64,000 bases of DNA, taken from contig NZ_LT984895.1 in assembly GCF_900258505.1 (NCBI RefSeq), positions 542,306 through 606,305 on the forward strand, given 5' to 3'. The notes beneath the pieces were generated by a model. That model saw nothing but the letters and a program-made list of their open reading frames with translations. It made no database searches and had not been told where the DNA came from. How positions within the stretch are numbered: the stretch's first letter is position 1; each line of letters opens with the position of its first letter. The position numbers and the translations under genes are program-made. The DNA comes from Brachybacterium timonense. Its GTDB lineage: Bacteria; Actinomycetota; Actinomycetes; Actinomycetales; Dermabacteraceae. This document shows, in pieces, positions 3,704 to 11,118 of the stretch.

Positions 3704-5146
3704 ATGACCACTGACCCCAACGCAGGCCCGACCATCGACTCGACCGCAGTTCCCGCTGTGAACCGCACTCATACCCCCACCGTCGGCTCATCCGTTGCTC
3801 CGGCTGCTGACCCGACCGTCGGCTCAGCCACGCCCGCGGCCCGCACCGAGCCCCACCGCCTCGTCGTGATCTCCGTCGACGCCATGAGCGACGTCGATGT
3901 GCCCTTCGCCCGCACGCTGCCGAACTTCGCGCGCATCTTCGAGGGCGCCTGGGCGCGGGCCACGGCCATTTACCCGAGTGTCACCTACCCCAACCACACC
4001 GCGCAGGTCACCGGTCGCACCGCCGCCGGGCACGGCATCTACGCCAATGAGCTCGTGCAGCCCGGCGTTCGCCGCCCCGACTGGTTCTGGGACGCCCGCG
4101 CGATCGCCTGCCCCACCATCTTCGACCTTGCGAAGGCGGCGGGTCTGCGCACCGCCACCGTGAACTGGCCCGTCACAGGATGGGCTCCGAGCACTGACTT
4201 TTCGGTGCCGGAGATCGTGGACCGGCGCGGGCTCGAGGAGACCCGAGCCCTCGTGCGTGAGGCCGCCTCGGAGTCGGCCCGGGAGTACGTGGACCGTCAC
4301 AGCGAGCTGATCGAATGGACGAAGAAGCCGCACTTCGGCCGGTTCGCCACGTCAGTCGCAGTGGACGTGATCCGTGAGCAGCAGCCGCATGCCCTGTTCA
4401 TCCACCTGGTCGATGTGGATTCTGAACGCCATGCGACCGGTCGTTTCACGCCGGAGGTGAAGGCAGCCCTCGAGCGCGTTGACGGCTGGATCGGCGAGAT
4501 CCTCGCGGCCATCGAGGACGCCGGTCTCGCATCGAGCACCAACGTCGCGATCGTCTCCGACCACGGTCATGTCGAGGTGGGTCGCTGCTGGCGACCGAAC
4601 ACGCTGCTGGTCGACGAGGGGCTGGTGCGCGTGGACGCCGACGGCGAGGTCGAAAGCTGGGATGCCTGGGTCCACGCCTGCGGGCTCACCGGTCAGCTCC
4701 ATCTTCATCCGGAAGCGTCTGACGATGTACGTGCTCGGGTGCTGGAGCTGGTGCAGGGCTGGGTGGCGGATCCGGAGGTGCCGCTCGAAGCGTTCCACCC
4801 GTCGGCGGATATGCGGGAGCGTTACGGGTACGACGGGCCCTTCCTGGGCGTGCTCGAGGGCACAAGCGGAACGAACTTCCAGAACATGTGGGACGGCCGC
4901 AGCCTGTACACGCGGTTCGACGAGGACTACTCCTTCCTGCTCAGCCAGCATGGGCACCTTCCCGAGCAGGACATCCAGGCGGTGTTCGCGCTACAGGGCC
5001 CCGACGCGGCGCAGGGTGCGCGCATCCCGCGCTGCACCGTACCGGATGAGGCCGTGACCTTCGCTCATCTCCTGGGCCTCGAGATCCCGGAGGCGGATGG
5101 CGCGGTCGTGCGGGAGATGCTCACCGGGGATGCTGCGCGGGGTTGA
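3704..5146 (+). CDS. alkaline-phosphatase-superfamily phosphodiesterase / nucleotide pyrophosphatase-like
   Basis: Metal-dependent phosphodiesterase of the type I phosphodiesterase/nucleotide pyrophosphatase family (480 residues). VVISVDAMSD gives the first metal Asp (residue 59), PSVTYPNHT the nucleophilic Thr94, VDVDSERH and SDHGH further metal ligands, and SQHGHLP a C-terminal His. There is no C/S-x-P-x-R sulfatase motif. About 50 Thr/Pro/Ala-rich residues precede the domain; no clear signal peptide is seen, so it is probably cytoplasmic. The ATG at 3704 has AAAGGA upstream. Its 3' end overlaps the convergent rlmC remnant by 26 bp. The natural substrate is not predictable from the sequence. 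Confidence 0.88.
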   Translation: MTTDPNAGPTIDSTAVPAVNRTHTPTVGSSVAPAADPTVGSATPAARTEPHRLVVISVDAMSDVDVPFARTLPNFARIFEGAWARATAIYPSVTYPNHTAQVTGRTAAGHGIYANELVQPGVRRPDWFWDARAIACPTIFDLAKAAGLRTATVNWPVTGWAPSTDFSVPEIVDRRGLEETRALVREAASESAREYVDRHSELIEWTKKPHFGRFATSVAVDVIREQQPHALFIHLVDVDSERHATGRFTPEVKAALERVDGWIGEILAAIEDAGLASSTNVAIVSDHGHVEVGRCWRPNTLLVDEGLVRVDADGEVESWDAWVHACGLTGQLHLHPEASDDVRARVLELVQGWVADPEVPLEAFHPSADMRERYGYDGPFLGVLEGTSGTNFQNMWDGRSLYTRFDEDYSFLLSQHGHLPEQDIQAVFALQGPDAAQGARIPRCTVPDEAVTFAHLLGLEIPEADGAVVREMLTGDAARG

Positions 5147-6149
5147 CGCTGCGCGGAGCTAACGCTGCGCTCCGCTCGAGCCGCACCAGAACCTCGGCGT
5201 GCTCGGTGTGCGGGAACATGTCGACGTACCGTGCGGCGGTGATCTGCAGTGACGGCATGGCCTCCAGGTCGCGGGCAAGGGTCTCCGGTTGGCAGGAGGA
5301 ATAGACCAGGCGCGCAACGCCGCTCGCCTCGATCCAAGCGGCGAGGTCGCGCCCGAGGCCACGACGTGGAGGGTTCACCACGAGCACATCTGGCGGGCCG
5401 TCGGTCTGCGCGGTGCGCTGGGCCCAGGTGGTCGCGTCGGCGCTCAGGAAACGGAGGCGTTCGCCGAGCCCGGCGTCCTGCGCCGAGCGGCGTGCCCCCT
5501 CGACCGCATCGGCACGGGTCTCGACGCCGGTGATGAGCGGCAGCGGGTGCTGCGGGCCGCGGCCGACGGGGACGCCTGCGCGGGCGTCGCGTGCGCGCAG
5601 GCCCCGTGAGTGGACGCCGCGGGCAGGTTCGTTCGTGCAGGCCAGGGCCGCGTGCAAGGCGAAACCACCCAGCCCGCAGTACAGGTCCCAGACGGTGTGG
5701 GGTGCCCAGGCGGCAATCCACCGACCCGCTTGACGGTACAGCTCCCCGGCCACGGCAGTGTTGGTCTGGACGAAGGAACGCGGCCCGGCGTGCAGGGTCG
5801 CGTCGCCGGTGGTGATCGGCAGCGTGCGCTCGCCGGCGAGGTGGATGTCGGTGGGGCCGGTGATCGCGGTGGTGTGGTCGGGATGGATGTTCGCCCACAC
5901 GGAGGTGACCAGTGGAGCGGGTCCGAGCAGTCGGGGCATATGTTCGCGGATGCGCTCGAGGGCCCGCTCGCTGCGCAGGACGAGCTGGACCATCGTGCTG
6001 CCATCCGGAGCGGCGGTGACGATGACGTAGCGGATCTCGCCGCGCCGGCGTGCGACGTCGTACGGCGGCACCTGGGCGCGACGGATCAGGTCGCGCACCT
6101 GCTGCAACACCGTGAGGACGGGCGGTGGGTACAGCGGGCAGTCGGCTAG
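5121..6149 (-). pseudogene. rlmC: rlmC, C-terminal part of a gene split by an IS element
   Basis: C-terminal three quarters of a TrmA-family 23S rRNA m5U methyltransferase (RlmC/RumB type). From the junction the frame opens with DCPLYPP, which matches the RlmC segment just after the Fe-S/TRAM-like N-terminal part. It continues with the SAM motif DLYCGLGGFA, then VNPPRRG, and the catalytic Cys in YSSCQPET. The first third, including the cluster cysteines, lies 2.9 kb away at 9060-9315. Joining the halves through one CTAG gives 1,281 nt, exactly 427 codons including the stop. A GTG at 6110 could in principle restart translation of 329 residues, but without the N-terminal part this should not be active. 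Convergent overlap of 26 bp with the phosphatase gene. Confidence 0.92.
6146..6149. repeat. left copy of CTAG target-site duplication
   Basis: CTAG abuts the left inverted repeat; the same four bases abut the right inverted repeat at 9060-9063. Collapsing the two copies restores the rlmC reading frame (codons GAC CTA GCC GAC), which identifies them as the target duplication. The site fits the CTAR/CTAG preference known for IS5-family elements. Confidence 0.9.
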
Positions 6150-6163
6150 GGCGTGTTGCTAAA
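6150..6163 (+). repeat. left terminal inverted repeat (IRL)
   Basis: GGCGTGTTGCTAAA; pairs with 9046-9059 with one mismatch at the second base. Confidence 0.9.
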
Positions 6164-6197
6164 CACCTCTGGCTGGGGTGCGGGTGAGCCTTGGAGG

Positions 6198-6587
6198 ATG
6201 TCGCGTGATGTGATCTCGGATCAGGTGTGGGCTGTGATCGGCCCGTTGTTTCCGTCGGTGAGGGCTACGGGGCGCCCACCGGTGGACCGGCGCACTGTGG
6301 TGGAGGCCGTGGCGTGGCGGTATCGCACCGGGGCGCCGTGGCGGGATTTGCCGTCGCGGTTCGGGAACTGGAACACCATTTATAGGAACTTTCGCCGGTG
6401 GGCGACGGCCGAGGTGTGGGCGCGGGTGTTGGAGAAGGTCCAGTCGCTGGCGTACCAGCGGGGAGACCTGGACTGGGTGACCTCGATCGACTCCACGGTG
6501 GTGCGCGTGCACCAGCATGGGGCGACCTTGCCCAGGGACACAGGGGGCCGGATCGAACTACAAGAAGTTCGGGCCGGAGACGCCTGA
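6198..6587 (+). CDS. IS5-family transposase, N-terminal frame (orfA)
   Basis: N-terminal portion of an IS427-like IS5-family DDE transposase. The DUF4096-type DNA-binding segment is visible (VIGPLFP, GRPPVDRRTVVEAVAWRYRTG, PWRDLP.RFGNW) followed by the first catalytic Asp in SIDSTVV. I prefer the ATG at 6198 (MSRDVISD); the frame also opens at a GTG within the inverted repeat at 6153. The second Asp and the Glu are in the overlapping downstream frame, so this product alone cannot be an active transposase. The frame change occurs near a run of five G at 6543-6547. Confidence 0.88.
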   Translation: MSRDVISDQVWAVIGPLFPSVRATGRPPVDRRTVVEAVAWRYRTGAPWRDLPSRFGNWNTIYRNFRRWATAEVWARVLEKVQSLAYQRGDLDWVTSIDSTVVRVHQHGATLPRDTGGRIELQEVRAGDA

Positions 6588-7095
6588 CCACGCCATCGGT
6601 CGCTCTCGGGGCGGGCTGACCACAAGGACGCATCTGGTCTGTGACGGGCGCGGCCGGGCGCTGGCGTTCATCCTCACCCCGGGGCAGGCGGCCGATACGA
6701 GCATGTTGGTCCCTACGCTGGGCCAGATCCGCGTGCCCGGTGCGGTCGGCAGACCGCGGACCCGTCCGGACCGGGTGCTGGCCGACAAGGGCTACCCCTC
6801 GAAAGCGAACCGGGCCTGGTTGCGCGCGCACGGCATCGCCGCGACGATCCCCGAACGCGACGATCAGATCGCCCACCGTCGGAACAGGCCGGGCCGACCG
6901 ATCGATTTCGGGGAGCAGCAACGGGCCCGTTATCGCGGCCGGAACGTCGTGGAGCGATGCTTCAACCGGCTCAAGCAGTGGCGCGGGATCGCGCTGCGAT
7001 CAGACAAGACCGCCGGCAGCTACCACGCCGGTCTGTGCCTGGCCGCCGCCCTCCACTGGCTCGCCACCGGTCAGCGTAGCGCGGCTCAGACGTAA
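6517..7095 (+). CDS. IS5-family transposase, C-terminal frame (orfB)
   Basis: C-terminal half of the same transposase. The family sequence resumes at GSNYKKFG and DHAIGRSRGGLTT, then shows the second catalytic Asp in VLADKGYPS and the Glu in RNVVERCFNRLKQW with the DKTAGSYHAG tail. The shift from the upstream frame is +1 (equivalently -2) and lies at or near GGGGG at 6543-6547; deleting one G would make one continuous frame. This may be programmed slippage or a recent inactivating indel. The last 10 bases overlap merR on the other strand. Confidence 0.87.
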   Translation: MGRPCPGTQGAGSNYKKFGPETPDHAIGRSRGGLTTRTHLVCDGRGRALAFILTPGQAADTSMLVPTLGQIRVPGAVGRPRTRPDRVLADKGYPSKANRAWLRAHGIAATIPERDDQIAHRRNRPGRPIDFGEQQRARYRGRNVVERCFNRLKQWRGIALRSDKTAGSYHAGLCLAAALHWLATGQRSAAQT

Positions 7096-7475
7096 CGGCA
7101 GACCTGGTCGGGGCCGCAGGTGTCGGGGTGGAGGGTGGTGGCCTCGTCGCGGAGAGCGGTGAGGGTGTCGCGCAGTGCGCTCAGGCTGCGCAACTGGTCC
7201 TCGATGTCCGCCAGGCGTTGGTCGAGCAGGTCGCGGACGTGGTCGCAGGGCGCCTGCCCGCCGTCGCGGATCTCCAGCACCTGCTGGATCTGGGCCAGCG
7301 TGAGCCCGGCGGCCTGGCCGCGGCGGATGAAGTCCAGCCGGTCGAGCACGGTCGGGTCGTAGTCCCGGTACCCCGCGGCCGTGCGGTCCGGGGCGGGCAG
7401 CAAACCCTGCCCCTCATAGAACCGCAGCGTCTTGGTGCTGGTGCCCGCGGCGGAGGCGAGTTCACCGATCCTCAT
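7086..7475 (-). CDS. merR: MerR-family metal-responsive regulator
   Basis: 129-residue MerR-family regulator. The winged-helix domain covers residues 1-70 (MRIGELASAAGTSTKTLRFY, GYRDYD, FIRRGQAAGLTL), followed by a dimerisation helix with Cys77 and a C-terminal metal loop with Cys120 and Cys126. The three-cysteine layout resembles the Hg(II) ligands of classical MerR (82, 117, 126). Divergent placement 92 bp from merA, with a MerR-type promoter between, supports mercury as the signal. Related zinc, copper or cadmium regulators share this layout, so the mer assignment rests partly on the neighbour. It is a passenger inside the IS element. Confidence 0.85.
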   Translation of the reverse strand: MRIGELASAAGTSTKTLRFYEGQGLLPAPDRTAAGYRDYDPTVLDRLDFIRRGQAAGLTLAQIQQVLEIRDGGQAPCDHVRDLLDQRLADIEDQLRSLSALRDTLTALRDEATTLHPDTCGPDQVCRYV

Positions 7476-7511
7476 GACAGCCCTCTTCTCGGGGTCTCCG
7501 GCGGGGTGGGC

Positions 7512-7543
7512 TTGACCTTGCCCTGCACTGGAAGGTCCATTCT
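7512..7543 (+). promoter_or_regulatory. MerR-type operator-promoter for merA
   Basis: TTGACC (-35) at 7512-7517 and CATTCT (-10) at 7538-7543 are separated by 20 bp, the over-long spacer characteristic of MerR-activated promoters. The spacer region holds the dyad GACCTT-N12-AAGGTC (7514-7537), a perfect inverted repeat. This fits promoter remodelling by the divergently encoded MerR. Confidence 0.8.
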
Positions 7544-7567
7544 GGCCTCAGTGGAGTATTTCGCCAA

Positions 7568-9016
7568 GTGATGGGGGTATCTCAAGTGGACCAAAAGGTT
7601 GACCTGGCGGTGATCGGCTCCGGGGGTGCGGCGTTCTCCGCCGCGATCCGGGCCCGGAACCTGGGCAAGTCGGTGGTGATGATCGAACGGAGCACGGTCG
7701 GCGGCACCTGCGTGAACATCGGTTGCGTGCCGTCCAAGGCGCTGCTCGCCGCCGCCGAGGCCCGGCACGTCGCCGCCGACGCCCCCGGCCGGTTCCCCGG
7801 CATCGCCACCGCGGCCGGCCCGGCGGACATGCCGGCCCTGATCCATGCCAAGCAATCCCTGGTGGAGAACCTGCAGGCGGCGAAGTACGTCGATCTCGCC
7901 GCCTCCTACGACTGGCCGATCCGGCAGGGGGTGGCCTCCTTCGGAGGCTCCCCAGAGGCGCCGGTGTTGCGGGTCACCGGCCCGGACGGGAGTACCGAGG
8001 TGCTCGAGGCTGCCCACTATCTGGTCGCCACTGGCGCACGCCCCTGGGTCCCGGACCTGCCGGGACTGGAGCATGTGGACTACCTGACCTCGACCACCGC
8101 GATGGAACTCACCGAGGTGCCCGAGTCCCTGCTGGTCCTCGGCGGTGGGTACGTCGCCCTGGAGCTGGCCCAGCTCTTCGCCCGGCTCGGCTCGACGGTG
8201 ACCATGCTGGTCCGCTCCCGGCTGGCCTCCGCCGAGGAGCCCGAGGTCAACCAGGTCTTGGCATCGGTGTTCGCCGACGAGGGCATCACGGTGCTGCGCC
8301 ACGCCCAGCTCGAAACGATCGCCCAGGACGAGACGACCGGTGAGGTAACCGCCACCGCGACGGTCGAAGGCCAGGCCAGCCAGTTCCGCGCCCAGCGGGT
8401 GTTGGTGGCGCTGGGCCGCCGTCCGGTCACCGACGACCTGAACCTGGACACCGTCCAGGTCCCGACCGGCGTGGGCGGGGAGGTCGTCGTCGACGACGCG
8501 CTGGCCACCACCAATCCGCGCATCTGGGCCGCCGGGGACGTCACCGGGCACCCGGAGTTCGTCTACGTCGCAGCCCACCACGGGGCGATGGTCGTTGACA
8601 ACGCCTTCACCGGGGCCGGACGCACGGTCAACTACGGCCACCTGCCCCGGGTGACGTTCACCAGTCCCGCTATCGGCGCGGTCGGGATGACCGAGACACA
8701 GGCCCTGGCGGCCGGCTACCGGTGCAACTGCCGCGTGCTGCCGCTGGACAACGTGCCCCGCGCACTGGTCAACCGGGACACCCGCGGATTCATCAAGGTC
8801 GTCATCGACGACGACACCGGCCGCATCCTCGGCCTCACCGCCCTCGCAAAGGACGCCGGTGAACTCGCCGCCGCCGGCGTCTTCCTCCTCGAGGGACACC
8901 AGACCTACCAAGACGTCGCCGCCATGTGGGCGCCCTACCTGACCATGGCCGAAGGCATCAAGCTCGCCTGCCAGTCCTTCACCACCGACCCCTCCCAGCT
9001 GTCCTGCTGCGCTTGA
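7568..9016 (+). CDS. merA: mercury(II) reductase
   Basis: Flavoprotein disulfide reductase reducing Hg(II) to volatile Hg(0) with NADPH in the cytoplasm. FAD motif GSGGAA near residue 17, redox pair GTCVNIGC (Cys48, Cys53), NAD(P) motif GGGYVALELAQ, and the second FAD motif AAGDVTGHPEF are present. The C terminus LSCCA carries the vicinal cysteine pair that separates MerA from other family members. The protein has no N-terminal NmerA (HMA) domain. Starts are a GTG at 7568 immediately followed by an ATG at 7571. It ends 30 bp inside the right inverted repeat. No merT/merP transporter or merB is present in the element. Confidence 0.95.
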   Translation: MMGVSQVDQKVDLAVIGSGGAAFSAAIRARNLGKSVVMIERSTVGGTCVNIGCVPSKALLAAAEARHVAADAPGRFPGIATAAGPADMPALIHAKQSLVENLQAAKYVDLAASYDWPIRQGVASFGGSPEAPVLRVTGPDGSTEVLEAAHYLVATGARPWVPDLPGLEHVDYLTSTTAMELTEVPESLLVLGGGYVALELAQLFARLGSTVTMLVRSRLASAEEPEVNQVLASVFADEGITVLRHAQLETIAQDETTGEVTATATVEGQASQFRAQRVLVALGRRPVTDDLNLDTVQVPTGVGGEVVVDDALATTNPRIWAAGDVTGHPEFVYVAAHHGAMVVDNAFTGAGRTVNYGHLPRVTFTSPAIGAVGMTETQALAAGYRCNCRVLPLDNVPRALVNRDTRGFIKVVIDDDTGRILGLTALAKDAGELAAAGVFLLEGHQTYQDVAAMWAPYLTMAEGIKLACQSFTTDPSQLSCCA

Positions 9017-9045
9017 AACGGCCACGCAATAGTCGCGCGGCCACC

Positions 9046-9059
9046 TTTAGCAACACGGC
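9046..9059 (-). repeat. right terminal inverted repeat (IRR)
   Basis: TTTAGCAACACGGC on the plus strand; its complement matches the left repeat at 13 of 14 positions. Confidence 0.9.
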
Positions 9060-9063
9060 CTAG
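9060..9063. repeat. right copy of CTAG target-site duplication
   Basis: Second CTAG, directly outside the right inverted repeat; matches 6146-6149. Confidence 0.9.
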
Positions 9064-9315
9064 GTCGACGCCGGTGCCCTGCCCGGGCAGGCCGAGCACA
9101 GGGTCGCTCGCGGTGCCGGACACGGCCATCTTGGCGCGGGCGCGGAACCCGGACTCGTCGCCTATGATCGGCGGACCCCACACGGCGCTGTCTTCTGTGC
9201 CAGGTCCCAGCAGCGCACGCACGCGAGCCTCGCCGTCGCTGACCTGGCGGGCATGCGGCAGCGCGAGCAGCGTGCACGACCGGCAGGTCGCGGCGTCGAA
9301 GTGGGGGCAGTGCAC
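9060..9315 (-). pseudogene. rlmC: rlmC, N-terminal part separated by the IS element
   Basis: First 85 codons of the RlmC-type methyltransferase. Cys3, Cys11 and Cys14 in MHCPHFDAATCRSC match the Fe-S cluster ligands of the family, whose fourth Cys lies in DCPLYP in the other half. FRARAKMAVSG matches the conserved FRNKAKM region. At the CTAG the frame passes into the element and would run on through unrelated residues to a stop at 8935, antisense to the merA end. The downstream three quarters are at 5121-6149. In the intact state the protein would be 426 residues, somewhat longer than E. coli RlmC (375). Confidence 0.92.
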
Positions 9316-9364: not shown

Positions 9365-10801
9365 CTACTGCCGATCCGTGAACCGCTGGGGCCGACGGTG
9401 ATCGTGCCAGTTCACGGCCGCAGGCGGTGGTGGATCCACCAGTCGTGGTGCGCTCGCGTGAGCCACGCGCCCGGTGCTCGTCTCCCAGTGCGTCACATGA
9501 CGGCCGATGATCCTGCCCGGTCTCACCGCGGGCAGCAACTCTTTGATGCTGTTGCAGTGCCGGCACAGGCCCTGCAGGTTCTCCAGGGACGTGCTGCCTC
9601 CGCGGGACCAGGGGCGAGCGTGGTCGATCTCTCGCACCGGTGCGTCGCAGAACGGTGCACGGCAGCGCTGATCGCGCCAGCGCACCAGCCGTGCGAGCCC
9701 TTCCGGCACGGCACGGGACCGAGACTCGACGGCGACCAGCTCTCCACTGGTCGGATGTGTGAACAGGCGGCGCATGACCGCTTCGGGCGCATGCCGAACC
9801 CAGTCGGGCACCACCTCAGCGGCGACCGGACCGTACCCTTCGAGCACAGCGGGCTCGCCATGGGAGGGCTCCATCAGCGAGCGCTCGGTGATCACAACGC
9901 CGAGGTCGATCCGTACGGGGCTCGTCCCGTCGGCGCGTCCCAGCAGGTGGTCGCACAGCAGATCCGCCATGATCGCGCCGTGGCCACGACGGTCACCGTG
10001 CGCACGTAACCGTTCCGCCTCCAGTGAGAGTCGCTTGCGGATCGCGGTGGCCTCGAGCGCAGGCAGATGCGCGTGCAGATCTGCCATGCCGTGCGGTGCG
10101 GGACGCACGCTCACCGACCGTTCGCGACCGGCGCGAACAGCACGCCCCGCATGCCCTGCAGGGTCTAGTTGATGGGCCACACGCCCCGCTTCCCGCGCCC
10201 ACTCACCGGGGCTTGCACTGTCCATGTAGGGCAGAGCCCGAGATAAATGCTCGTCGATCTGCGTGCGCTCATCGGGCCGTAACGGGCCGACGCTGCGTCC
10301 CACGGCAAGGGCAGCGGATTCGTCGATCTGCCCATGGGCGAGAGCAGCGAAGAGCAGAGGCATGTCTGTGACAAGACGGTGGGATGCGCGCAGCCGTCGG
10401 CGTGCATCTGCGAGCCCGCGACGTGATGCGATAGCCGTCTCGAGAGCAACGGTGCGGCCCTGGTCAGCCTCGGGCGTGCCCGTTGCGGCTTCGTCGGCGC
10501 GTGATCGAGCATCACGGGAGGTGAGAAGCCGCGCCTCGAGAGCGCCCGCGGCGTCGCGCACACGGCCAAGAGCGGCGAGCGCGTGGTCCAGATCCGCAGT
10601 ACTGAGCCTGGGCGGGGCGCCGTCGTGAGTCCCGATCTCGCTCAACCCGGATGCTGCGGACGGTGCGAGCGCGAGCCGTGCAAGCTGTTGCGCGAGCATC
10701 TCGAGATCCAGGCCGCCGGCGAGCACGGCGCCATCGGGGCCGACGACGATTCGTGGCCCCTCTGCGTGACGCTCCGGTGCGCCCGACTGCTCGATGTCCA
10801 T
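9365..10801 (-). CDS. 13E12/DUF222-family HNH endonuclease domain protein
   Basis: 478-residue member of the DUF222 (13E12 repeat) family common in actinobacteria, with a C-terminal HNH nuclease domain at about residues 380-417: CRAPFCDAPVREIDH, RGGSTSLENLQGLCRHCN. The two CxxC pairs for structural zinc and the catalytic His are all present. I chose the ATG at 10801, preceded by GGTGGAG; the frame remains open to 11002 but without a ribosome site. Predicted DNA nicking or cleavage is inferred from the fold only. These genes are often multicopy and have been discussed as mobile or selfish genes. Confidence 0.85.
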   Translation of the reverse strand: MDIEQSGAPERHAEGPRIVVGPDGAVLAGGLDLEMLAQQLARLALAPSAASGLSEIGTHDGAPPRLSTADLDHALAALGRVRDAAGALEARLLTSRDARSRADEAATGTPEADQGRTVALETAIASRRGLADARRRLRASHRLVTDMPLLFAALAHGQIDESAALAVGRSVGPLRPDERTQIDEHLSRALPYMDSASPGEWAREAGRVAHQLDPAGHAGRAVRAGRERSVSVRPAPHGMADLHAHLPALEATAIRKRLSLEAERLRAHGDRRGHGAIMADLLCDHLLGRADGTSPVRIDLGVVITERSLMEPSHGEPAVLEGYGPVAAEVVPDWVRHAPEAVMRRLFTHPTSGELVAVESRSRAVPEGLARLVRWRDQRCRAPFCDAPVREIDHARPWSRGGSTSLENLQGLCRHCNSIKELLPAVRPGRIIGRHVTHWETSTGRVAHASAPRLVDPPPPAAVNWHDHRRPQRFTDRQ

Positions 10802-11118
10802 GACTCCACCCTCGGGGAGGGGTCTGACAAACGAAGGCGCCCAAGCCCCACCGAAGGTCACGGAAAGGTCACGAAAGGGTGGGTGGGCGTCGTCTGCGGG
10901 GCCAGGTGGTTGATGCTTGCCCGGCCGGGGTGTCATGTGCTGGGCCCGGGTGGATACCGTCTGCTCGGCCAAAGCGGCTGCCGCCCGCCCGGCGTTACGC
11001 ACCTACTGTCACCCGCCGGACGTGCCTACGGTCACCCGCAGCCCGAGCACATCTCGAGCGGCACCCTCGCTTTCCTCTACCCCTCGTCTTCATCTGCACC
11101 GTGCGGCACACTGTTCGC
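10802..11118. other. intergenic region upstream of HNH and GPP34 genes
   Basis: 317-bp divergent intergenic region. The one clear structure is a direct repeat AAGGTCACG at 10854-10862 and 10865-10873, spaced 11 bp (one helical turn). It lies about 55 bp upstream of the HNH gene and could be a tandem binding site. No other feature is supported. Confidence 0.4.

Follow-up and report, generated by a model that had tools for sequence, protein, structure and literature searches.

Genes for mercury resistance, merR and merA, follow an IS5-type transposase gene in the window analysed here (the whole 64-kb stretch, G000:C1:542306-606305, of a 3.09-Mb Brachybacterium genome). Are they cargo of a single insertion sequence (IS), or do they only lie beside one? 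We hold with high confidence that positions 6150-9059 form a passenger-carrying (transporter) IS of the IS5 family with the mer genes as its cargo. This is what a first, sequence-only reading of the window had proposed, and the ends, the flanking CTAG words, the continuous frame of the interrupted rlmC gene and a copy in another genome (G024) agree with it.

Structure of the element

The features between and around the ends are as follows.

6146..6149, no strand: CTAG, left copy of the target duplication; CTAG also flanks the G024 copy
6150..6163, plus strand: left terminal inverted repeat (IRL), GGCGTGTTGCTAAA; the same or a similar repeat is present in plain relatives
6198..6587, plus strand: transposase, first reading frame (NF033580, PF13340); start codon presumed, listed open reading frame (ORF) 6153-6587
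6481..7095, plus strand: transposase, second reading frame (NF033580, PF01609, the DDE domain); open from 6481
7086..7475, minus strand: merR, MerR-family regulator, predicted to be metal-responsive; overlaps the end of the transposase ORF (7095) by 10 bp
7512..7543, plus strand: candidate MerR-type promoter/operator between merR and merA (TTGACC, 20-bp spacer, CATTCT), picked by eye, function putative
7568..9016, plus strand: merA, mercury(II) reductase without N-terminal metal-binding domain (TIGR02053); start codon uncertain
9046..9059, minus strand: right terminal inverted repeat (IRR); present after merA in loci L007, L009 and L004 as well
9060..9063, no strand: CTAG, right copy of the target duplication

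The element is 2,910 bp long and has 14-bp ends with CTAG on either side. The two repeats are identical at 13 of 14 positions; for a fixed pair, a match at 13 or more positions is expected by chance with p ~1.6e-7, the CTAG words being left out of this calculation. From 6146 to 9063, the order is CTAG, left repeat, two-frame transposase, merR (minus strand), merA (plus strand), right repeat and CTAG, and the right repeat starts 29 bp past merA. Four proteins are encoded between the ends, namely two IS5 transposase halves, MerR and MerA. The latter two are passengers without a role in transposition inside one pair of IS ends, which is the arrangement of a transporter IS. Members of the IS5 family and its IS427-like group duplicate 2-4 bp of target, and the short terminal repeats with CTAG on both sides fit this pattern. 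Neither a Tn3 transposase nor a Tn3 resolvase was found within the ends.

With up to two mismatches allowed, each end repeat occurs a single time in the 64 kb, so there is no second repeat between the transposase and the mer genes. The sequence-only reading had described the repeats, the CTAG duplications, the lack of an internal repeat and the overlap of merR with the transposase end, and all four hold at these positions. A composite transposon as the present structure was rejected, as two flanking ISs are not there: the repeats are unique in the window, and the genome contains no close second copy, just a 203-bp stretch with 66% identity far off.

Insertion into rlmC

The interrupted gene is rlmC, encoding the 23S rRNA uracil-747 methyltransferase on the minus strand.

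9060..9315, minus strand: 5' part of rlmC
5121..6149, minus strand: 3' part of rlmC

Against the rlmC profile, the 5' part ends at position 86-87 and the 3' part starts at 98-100. When the element and one CTAG are removed, the rlmC frame is continuous across the site. In a genus search, every congener (37/37) has an uninterrupted match across this junction, and the 11 that were aligned base by base show no 4-bp duplication.

The transposase

Both transposase halves pass the IS5 model NF033580 (116.5 and 141.5 bits, cut-off 110), and with PF13340 and PF01609 they represent an IS5-type DDE transposase. Judged from these matches, the element belongs to the IS5 family and appears most like the IS427 group, a name given by resemblance. 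The product is probably formed by a +1 (or -2) frameshift between the two frames. This two-ORF layout suited to frameshifting is shared by six of the seven plain relatives read (L080 differs). In the window, the frame extends about six codons past the end found in plain relatives and stops inside the merR end; the last codons and the stop of the second frame lie outside the body of the plain IS.

These frames bear on the possibility that the element is a relic, which moved as a unit in the past and whose transposase is now inactive. It is present as a single copy, and the transposases of the other mer copies are broken or cut, as would be expected of a relic. However, both frames are open, they overlap as in six of the seven plain relatives read, and both halves pass the family model. 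We consider a relic unlikely, and the transporter IS of the window may still be able to transpose.

The merR and merA genes

MerA scores 531 bits against TIGR02053 (cut-off 454) and is a mercury(II) reductase by this model. Its best match in the PDB is the mercuric reductase 5x1y, and the closest solved structures are mercuric reductases. No N-terminal metal-binding domain was found in a Pfam scan. Cysteines 48 and 53 lie within a GTCVNIGC motif and cysteines 480 and 481 at the C-terminus; we take the first two to be the redox pair and the last two the metal-binding pair. It is the only MerA above the cut-off in the genome, with eight weaker matches below it. Ratios of dN/dS over 10 pairs were 0.17-0.31 for merA and 0.23-0.36 for merR, and merA is under purifying selection. 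MerR has cysteines at positions 77, 120 and 126. In the host, MerR would control the divergent promoter in response to metal and MerA would reduce Hg(II) to Hg(0), which would confer mercury resistance.

The mer unit in other genomes and plasmids

The junction between transposase and merR was found in the window and at four more loci: in G024 (L009), in Brachybacterium massiliense (L007 = G014) and on plasmids of Rhodococcus pyridinivorans (NZ_CP066854, L004) and Citricoccus (NZ_CP039426, L005). The G024 unit measures 2,527 bp and has both ends with CTAG on either side, at a site other than rlmC. Each of its end repeats differs by two mismatches from the left repeat of the window or its complement. 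Its transposase carries a deletion, and the unit adjoins ORFs read as arsenic-type genes. The sequence-only reading had asked for the same unit with both ends and CTAG duplications at another site, and G024 supplies it, though in transposase-deleted form; a third site, on the Rhodococcus plasmid, has the right end only. In B. massiliense the transposase is interrupted and its left part is missing. The Rhodococcus plasmid keeps the 3' end of the transposase, merR, merA and the right repeat, and the Citricoccus plasmid the junction and merA.

One could ask whether the genes are accidental neighbours, that is, an IS without a right end beside resident mer genes and a stray repeat at 9046. The Citricoccus copy, which has the junction and no right repeat at up to three mismatches, would fit such a history. 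It is contradicted by the G024 unit with both ends and CTAGs and by the rlmC site, whose frame is continuous outside the element, and the repeats are unique in 64 kb. Accidental neighbourhood was therefore rejected as very improbable.

The junction aligns in all five loci, so a single capture of the mer genes is the simplest reading for this transporter IS. The transposases of the window and G024 cluster at 100/100 support. Searches of overlapping genome samples found the chimera of transposase and mer in 3/47 genomes of the family (G000, G024, G014) and in 2/396 of the order (G000, G024). Beyond the genome of the window, none was found in the class (n=394) or phylum (n=396) samples or in three other families (0/249, 0/24 and 0/201); the query in these searches was 541 bp of junction sequence with a limit of E<=1e-40, which weaker chimeras would escape. 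Among 72,556 plasmid records, two contained the junction (megablast). In these genome and plasmid samples, nothing past the five loci was detected. The mer unit has versions in the genomes of three Brachybacterium strains, and truncated ones on plasmids from two further genera.

Plain relatives and a cargo slot

Plain actinomycete IS5 elements (NF033580; PF13340/PF01609; IS427-like) resemble the window element in their related transposase, their 14-bp ends, mostly with CTAG, and, in six of the seven read, their two frames. They differ in being only 922-973 bp long and without cargo, and the stop of their transposase gene falls at or inside the right repeat; in the cases read, this repeat provides the stop codon. 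Since the transposase of plain relatives runs into the right repeat, the mer genes must lie after the transposase and before the right end that belongs to it. The sequence-only reading had set against itself homologues with the right repeat directly after the transposase and mer always outside; relatives with such a repeat do exist, but they are plain ones without mer genes. Across 58 loci that surround relatives of the transposase, whether plain, with cargo or partial, merR had no match and merA a single one (L115, 29% identity), too distant for this kind of MerA.

To describe the lineage, 39 fetched loci (29 genome and 10 plasmid regions, the latter from 10 of 18 plasmid records) and seven earlier loci were analysed with one script. 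Left out were 23 partial transposase matches, four without left repeat (among them G024, owing to its deletion) and four duplicate rows. There remained 31 different transposase bodies, each with a left repeat. Of these, 26 also have a right repeat next to a CTAG-like 4-bp word, and the other five have none. At stricter limits a right repeat was found in 25/31, compared with 0/26 upstream windows and 1/7,000 shuffled windows. The 26 two-ended copies, the window included, comprise 14 plain ones and 12 with cargo of 11 kinds; as the loci were selected among search hits, the ratio 12:14 should not be read as a frequency. The flanking 4-bp words are identical in 21 of the 26. In L018, L020, L076, L078 and L085, the right repeat lies 0.4-1.2 kb past the transposase (with CTAG; CTAA in L085).

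Cargo other than mer, of 11 kinds, lies between transposase and right repeat in L076, L078, L085, L102, L103, L104, L106, L112, L114, L116, L121, L136, L143 and L144. Named by profile only, the cargoes are:

Cargo 1: merR-merA
Cargo 2: AHSA1-like protein
Cargo 3: LysE-type exporter and AsnC/Lrp-type regulator
Cargo 4: MepB-like protein
Cargo 5: EXLDI protein
Cargo 6: DUF6226 protein
Cargo 7: unplaced 135-aa ORF
Cargo 8: DF-family-like protein, two bodies (64 bits, below the cut-off of 70)
Cargo 9: formyltransferase (Pfam Formyl_trans_N; PurN 135 bits, below the cut-off of 150)
Cargo 10: 99-aa protein, weakly DUF1330-like (17.3 bits, below cut-off)
Cargo 11: GNAT acetyltransferase
Cargo 12, outside the 26-copy count: PF00144 beta-lactamase-family ORF, apparently frame-split

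In the cases read in which the cargo gene adjoining the transposase points back at it (mer, AHSA1, LysE, MepB, EXLDI and DF), the distance from the 3' end of the cargo gene to the transposase stop is about 20 bp at most. In L121 (4221-5747), the final bases of the GNAT cargo gene recur at the left end and make the inverted repeat much longer than 14 bp, as would be seen after copying of one end onto the other.

Sister units, turnover and origin

Two further units of the lineage were found at more than one site. The DF unit (1,307 bp) is 99.7-100% identical at three sites, in Microbacterium paraoxydans, G026 and M. sediminis, and the similarity ends within a few bases of the element ends. Its flanks are CTAG/CTAG in M. 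paraoxydans, CGAG/CGAG in G026 and, within a palindromic flank, TCAG/CTGA in M. sediminis. The word repeated in G026 is not CTAG, which points to the 4 bp as target sequence rather than a piece of the repeat. On the M. sediminis plasmid (L136:4959-6286), the 1,307-bp unit stands between inverted, not direct, copies of a 10-bp word. The second unit, of 1,981 bp in G1545 and 1,980 bp in G1534, is 99.7% identical with CTAG in both, and no match was found between the two flanks within the flanking sequence compared. Near-identity at three and two sites, respectively, indicates that these sister units move whole. Like the mer unit with its copy in G024, each was found as one unit at different sites, and the window element would likewise move as a unit.

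A tree of 28 rows (15 plain, 13 with cargo) shows six changes of label between plain and cargo in its best form, and a minimum of four if well-supported branches alone are counted. Of its 25 inner branches, 8 are unresolved, and one of the plain rows sits on a long branch. As each change of label can be a gain or a loss, the tree gives turnover and not direction. The lineage may have a standing cargo slot, with repeated gain and loss of genes at one point, after the final codon of the transposase and ahead of the right repeat, and a shared capture step; we put this forward tentatively, as slightly less probable than its opposite. For example, the internal right repeat might be lost and the next repeat downstream be used in its place. 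If this were true, the IS would be a minimal vehicle for gene capture, with mer as one of at least 12 loads.

For the window element, merR-merA would have entered a plain ancestor of the 0.93-kb type, behind the end of the transposase gene and in front of the right repeat of this ancestor, with loss of the internal copy of that repeat. The transposase would then act on the two outer repeats and insert the whole 2.9 kb at CTAG, duplicating 4 bp.

Another route of origin, not a different present structure, is a decayed composite transposon, in which two IS copies once surrounded the mer genes and the second was cut down to its outer repeat. The right repeat, 13/14 like the left, is a true IS end, as this route would require, and L114, with other cargo, retains 7 bases from the start of an internal right repeat directly behind the transposase, as a broken repeat would. 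On the other hand, neither a second repeat in the window nor a close second copy in the genome was found, the transposase-merR junction is the same in three genera, and relatives with other cargo also show the one-transposase layout. A composite origin has a modest chance at best.

Points that weigh against a mobile mer-carrying IS

Several results speak against the transporter IS, or limit how far it can be taken. Among 11 congener rlmC sites aligned base by base, none has CTAG and five have gaps of 2-3 bases nearby; the CTAG of this strain before insertion is deduced for that reason. The single copy in this genome leaves recent movement without proof. Only two mer sites have both ends. The identity of B. 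massiliense and G024 (95.5% over 3.6 kb) runs on for about 1.5 kb to the right of the element, which places both at the same insertion site, so they are not independent; an empty counterpart of the G024 site was not found. The Rhodococcus copy is without a left end and without CTAG after the right repeat, and in the Citricoccus copy the left end is lacking in addition to the right repeat. With all these copies broken or cut, the window copy alone looks autonomous. Flanking 4-bp words differ in 5 of the 26 two-ended copies. Finally, MerR passes no specific metal model (87.4 bits against TIGR02051, cut-off 150.85; 104.7 against CadR-PbrR, cut-off 151.45), and its assignment is to the MerR family only.

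Relation to known elements

ISs with passenger genes are an accepted kind (PMC7986276), and metal-type cargo is described in other IS families, for example czcD in ISPpu12a (PMC4447125). The transporter ISs ISPpu12a (ISL3, czcD), ISPst2 (ISL3) and ISArsp12 (IS481) likewise have one transposase and passengers in one pair of ends, an ArsR-type regulator and a permease in ISPst2 and ISArsp12; they differ from the window element in family, and the relevant passages name no mer genes for them (PMC4447125, PMC6305408). For IS427, two-ORF members are named in PMC4133298. One of them, ISPsp10, is described there as having two ORFs for a trans-frame fusion transposase and an ORF2 without its own stop codon; it differs in its target-supplied stop and duplicated TA, and that description mentions no cargo (PMC4133298).

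The sequence-only reading had assigned classical mer loci to Tn3-family transposons. Such loci are known: according to the same account, Tn5044 has seven mer genes and Tn5563a has merP, merT and merR, both in the Tn3 family (PMC4133298). They share mobile mer genes with the window element, but use Tn3-type transposition with cointegrate resolution; in the window element, the transposase is of the IS5 type and merR-merA are the only mer genes. Mobile mer genes are not of the Tn3 type only, however, as one mer relative lies beside tniB/tniQ. That reading had also suggested a possibly undescribed vehicle. No description of a mer-carrying IS5-family IS, or of such a cargo lineage, was met in searches of the open-licence PMC literature (ISfinder and most subscription papers were outside this search), but the element is no lone oddity, as relatives carry other cargo.

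For mercury resistance, the element would be a 2.9-kb vehicle that needs one transposase and no partner copy. The sister units show one or two genes as recurrent cargo of a simple IS lineage, in one fixed place, which offers a testable case of how an ordinary IS becomes a gene carrier. Annotation that ends an IS at its transposase would miss such cargo.

Other mer genes and neighbouring genes

Close MerA proteins (87-93%) are found in Micrococcus terreus, Citricoccus nitrophenolicus, Janibacter terrae and Granulicoccus. In the order, merR-merA relatives that do not belong to the mer unit are common, with about 66-75% identity at the DNA level, and no window-type transposase was found beside mer in the loci tested (mostly with flanks of up to 1.5 kb). 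A merA scan of genome contigs returned B. massiliense and one metagenome-assembled genome with a 70% merA and no transposase, and a phage search with the mer part gave two matches, short or partial.

Two genomes from separate families (L038 and L039) share a different merR-merA segment, about 74-75% like that of the window, with 99.7% identity across 3.5 kb, which suggests another mobile mer vehicle. On a Cellulosimicrobium plasmid (L006:1-6647), merR-merA-merB lies beside genes for a Mu-type transposase, tniB, tniQ and a recombinase. In the window, a gene for a DUF222-HNH endonuclease protein (9365-11002, minus strand) is located just past rlmC.

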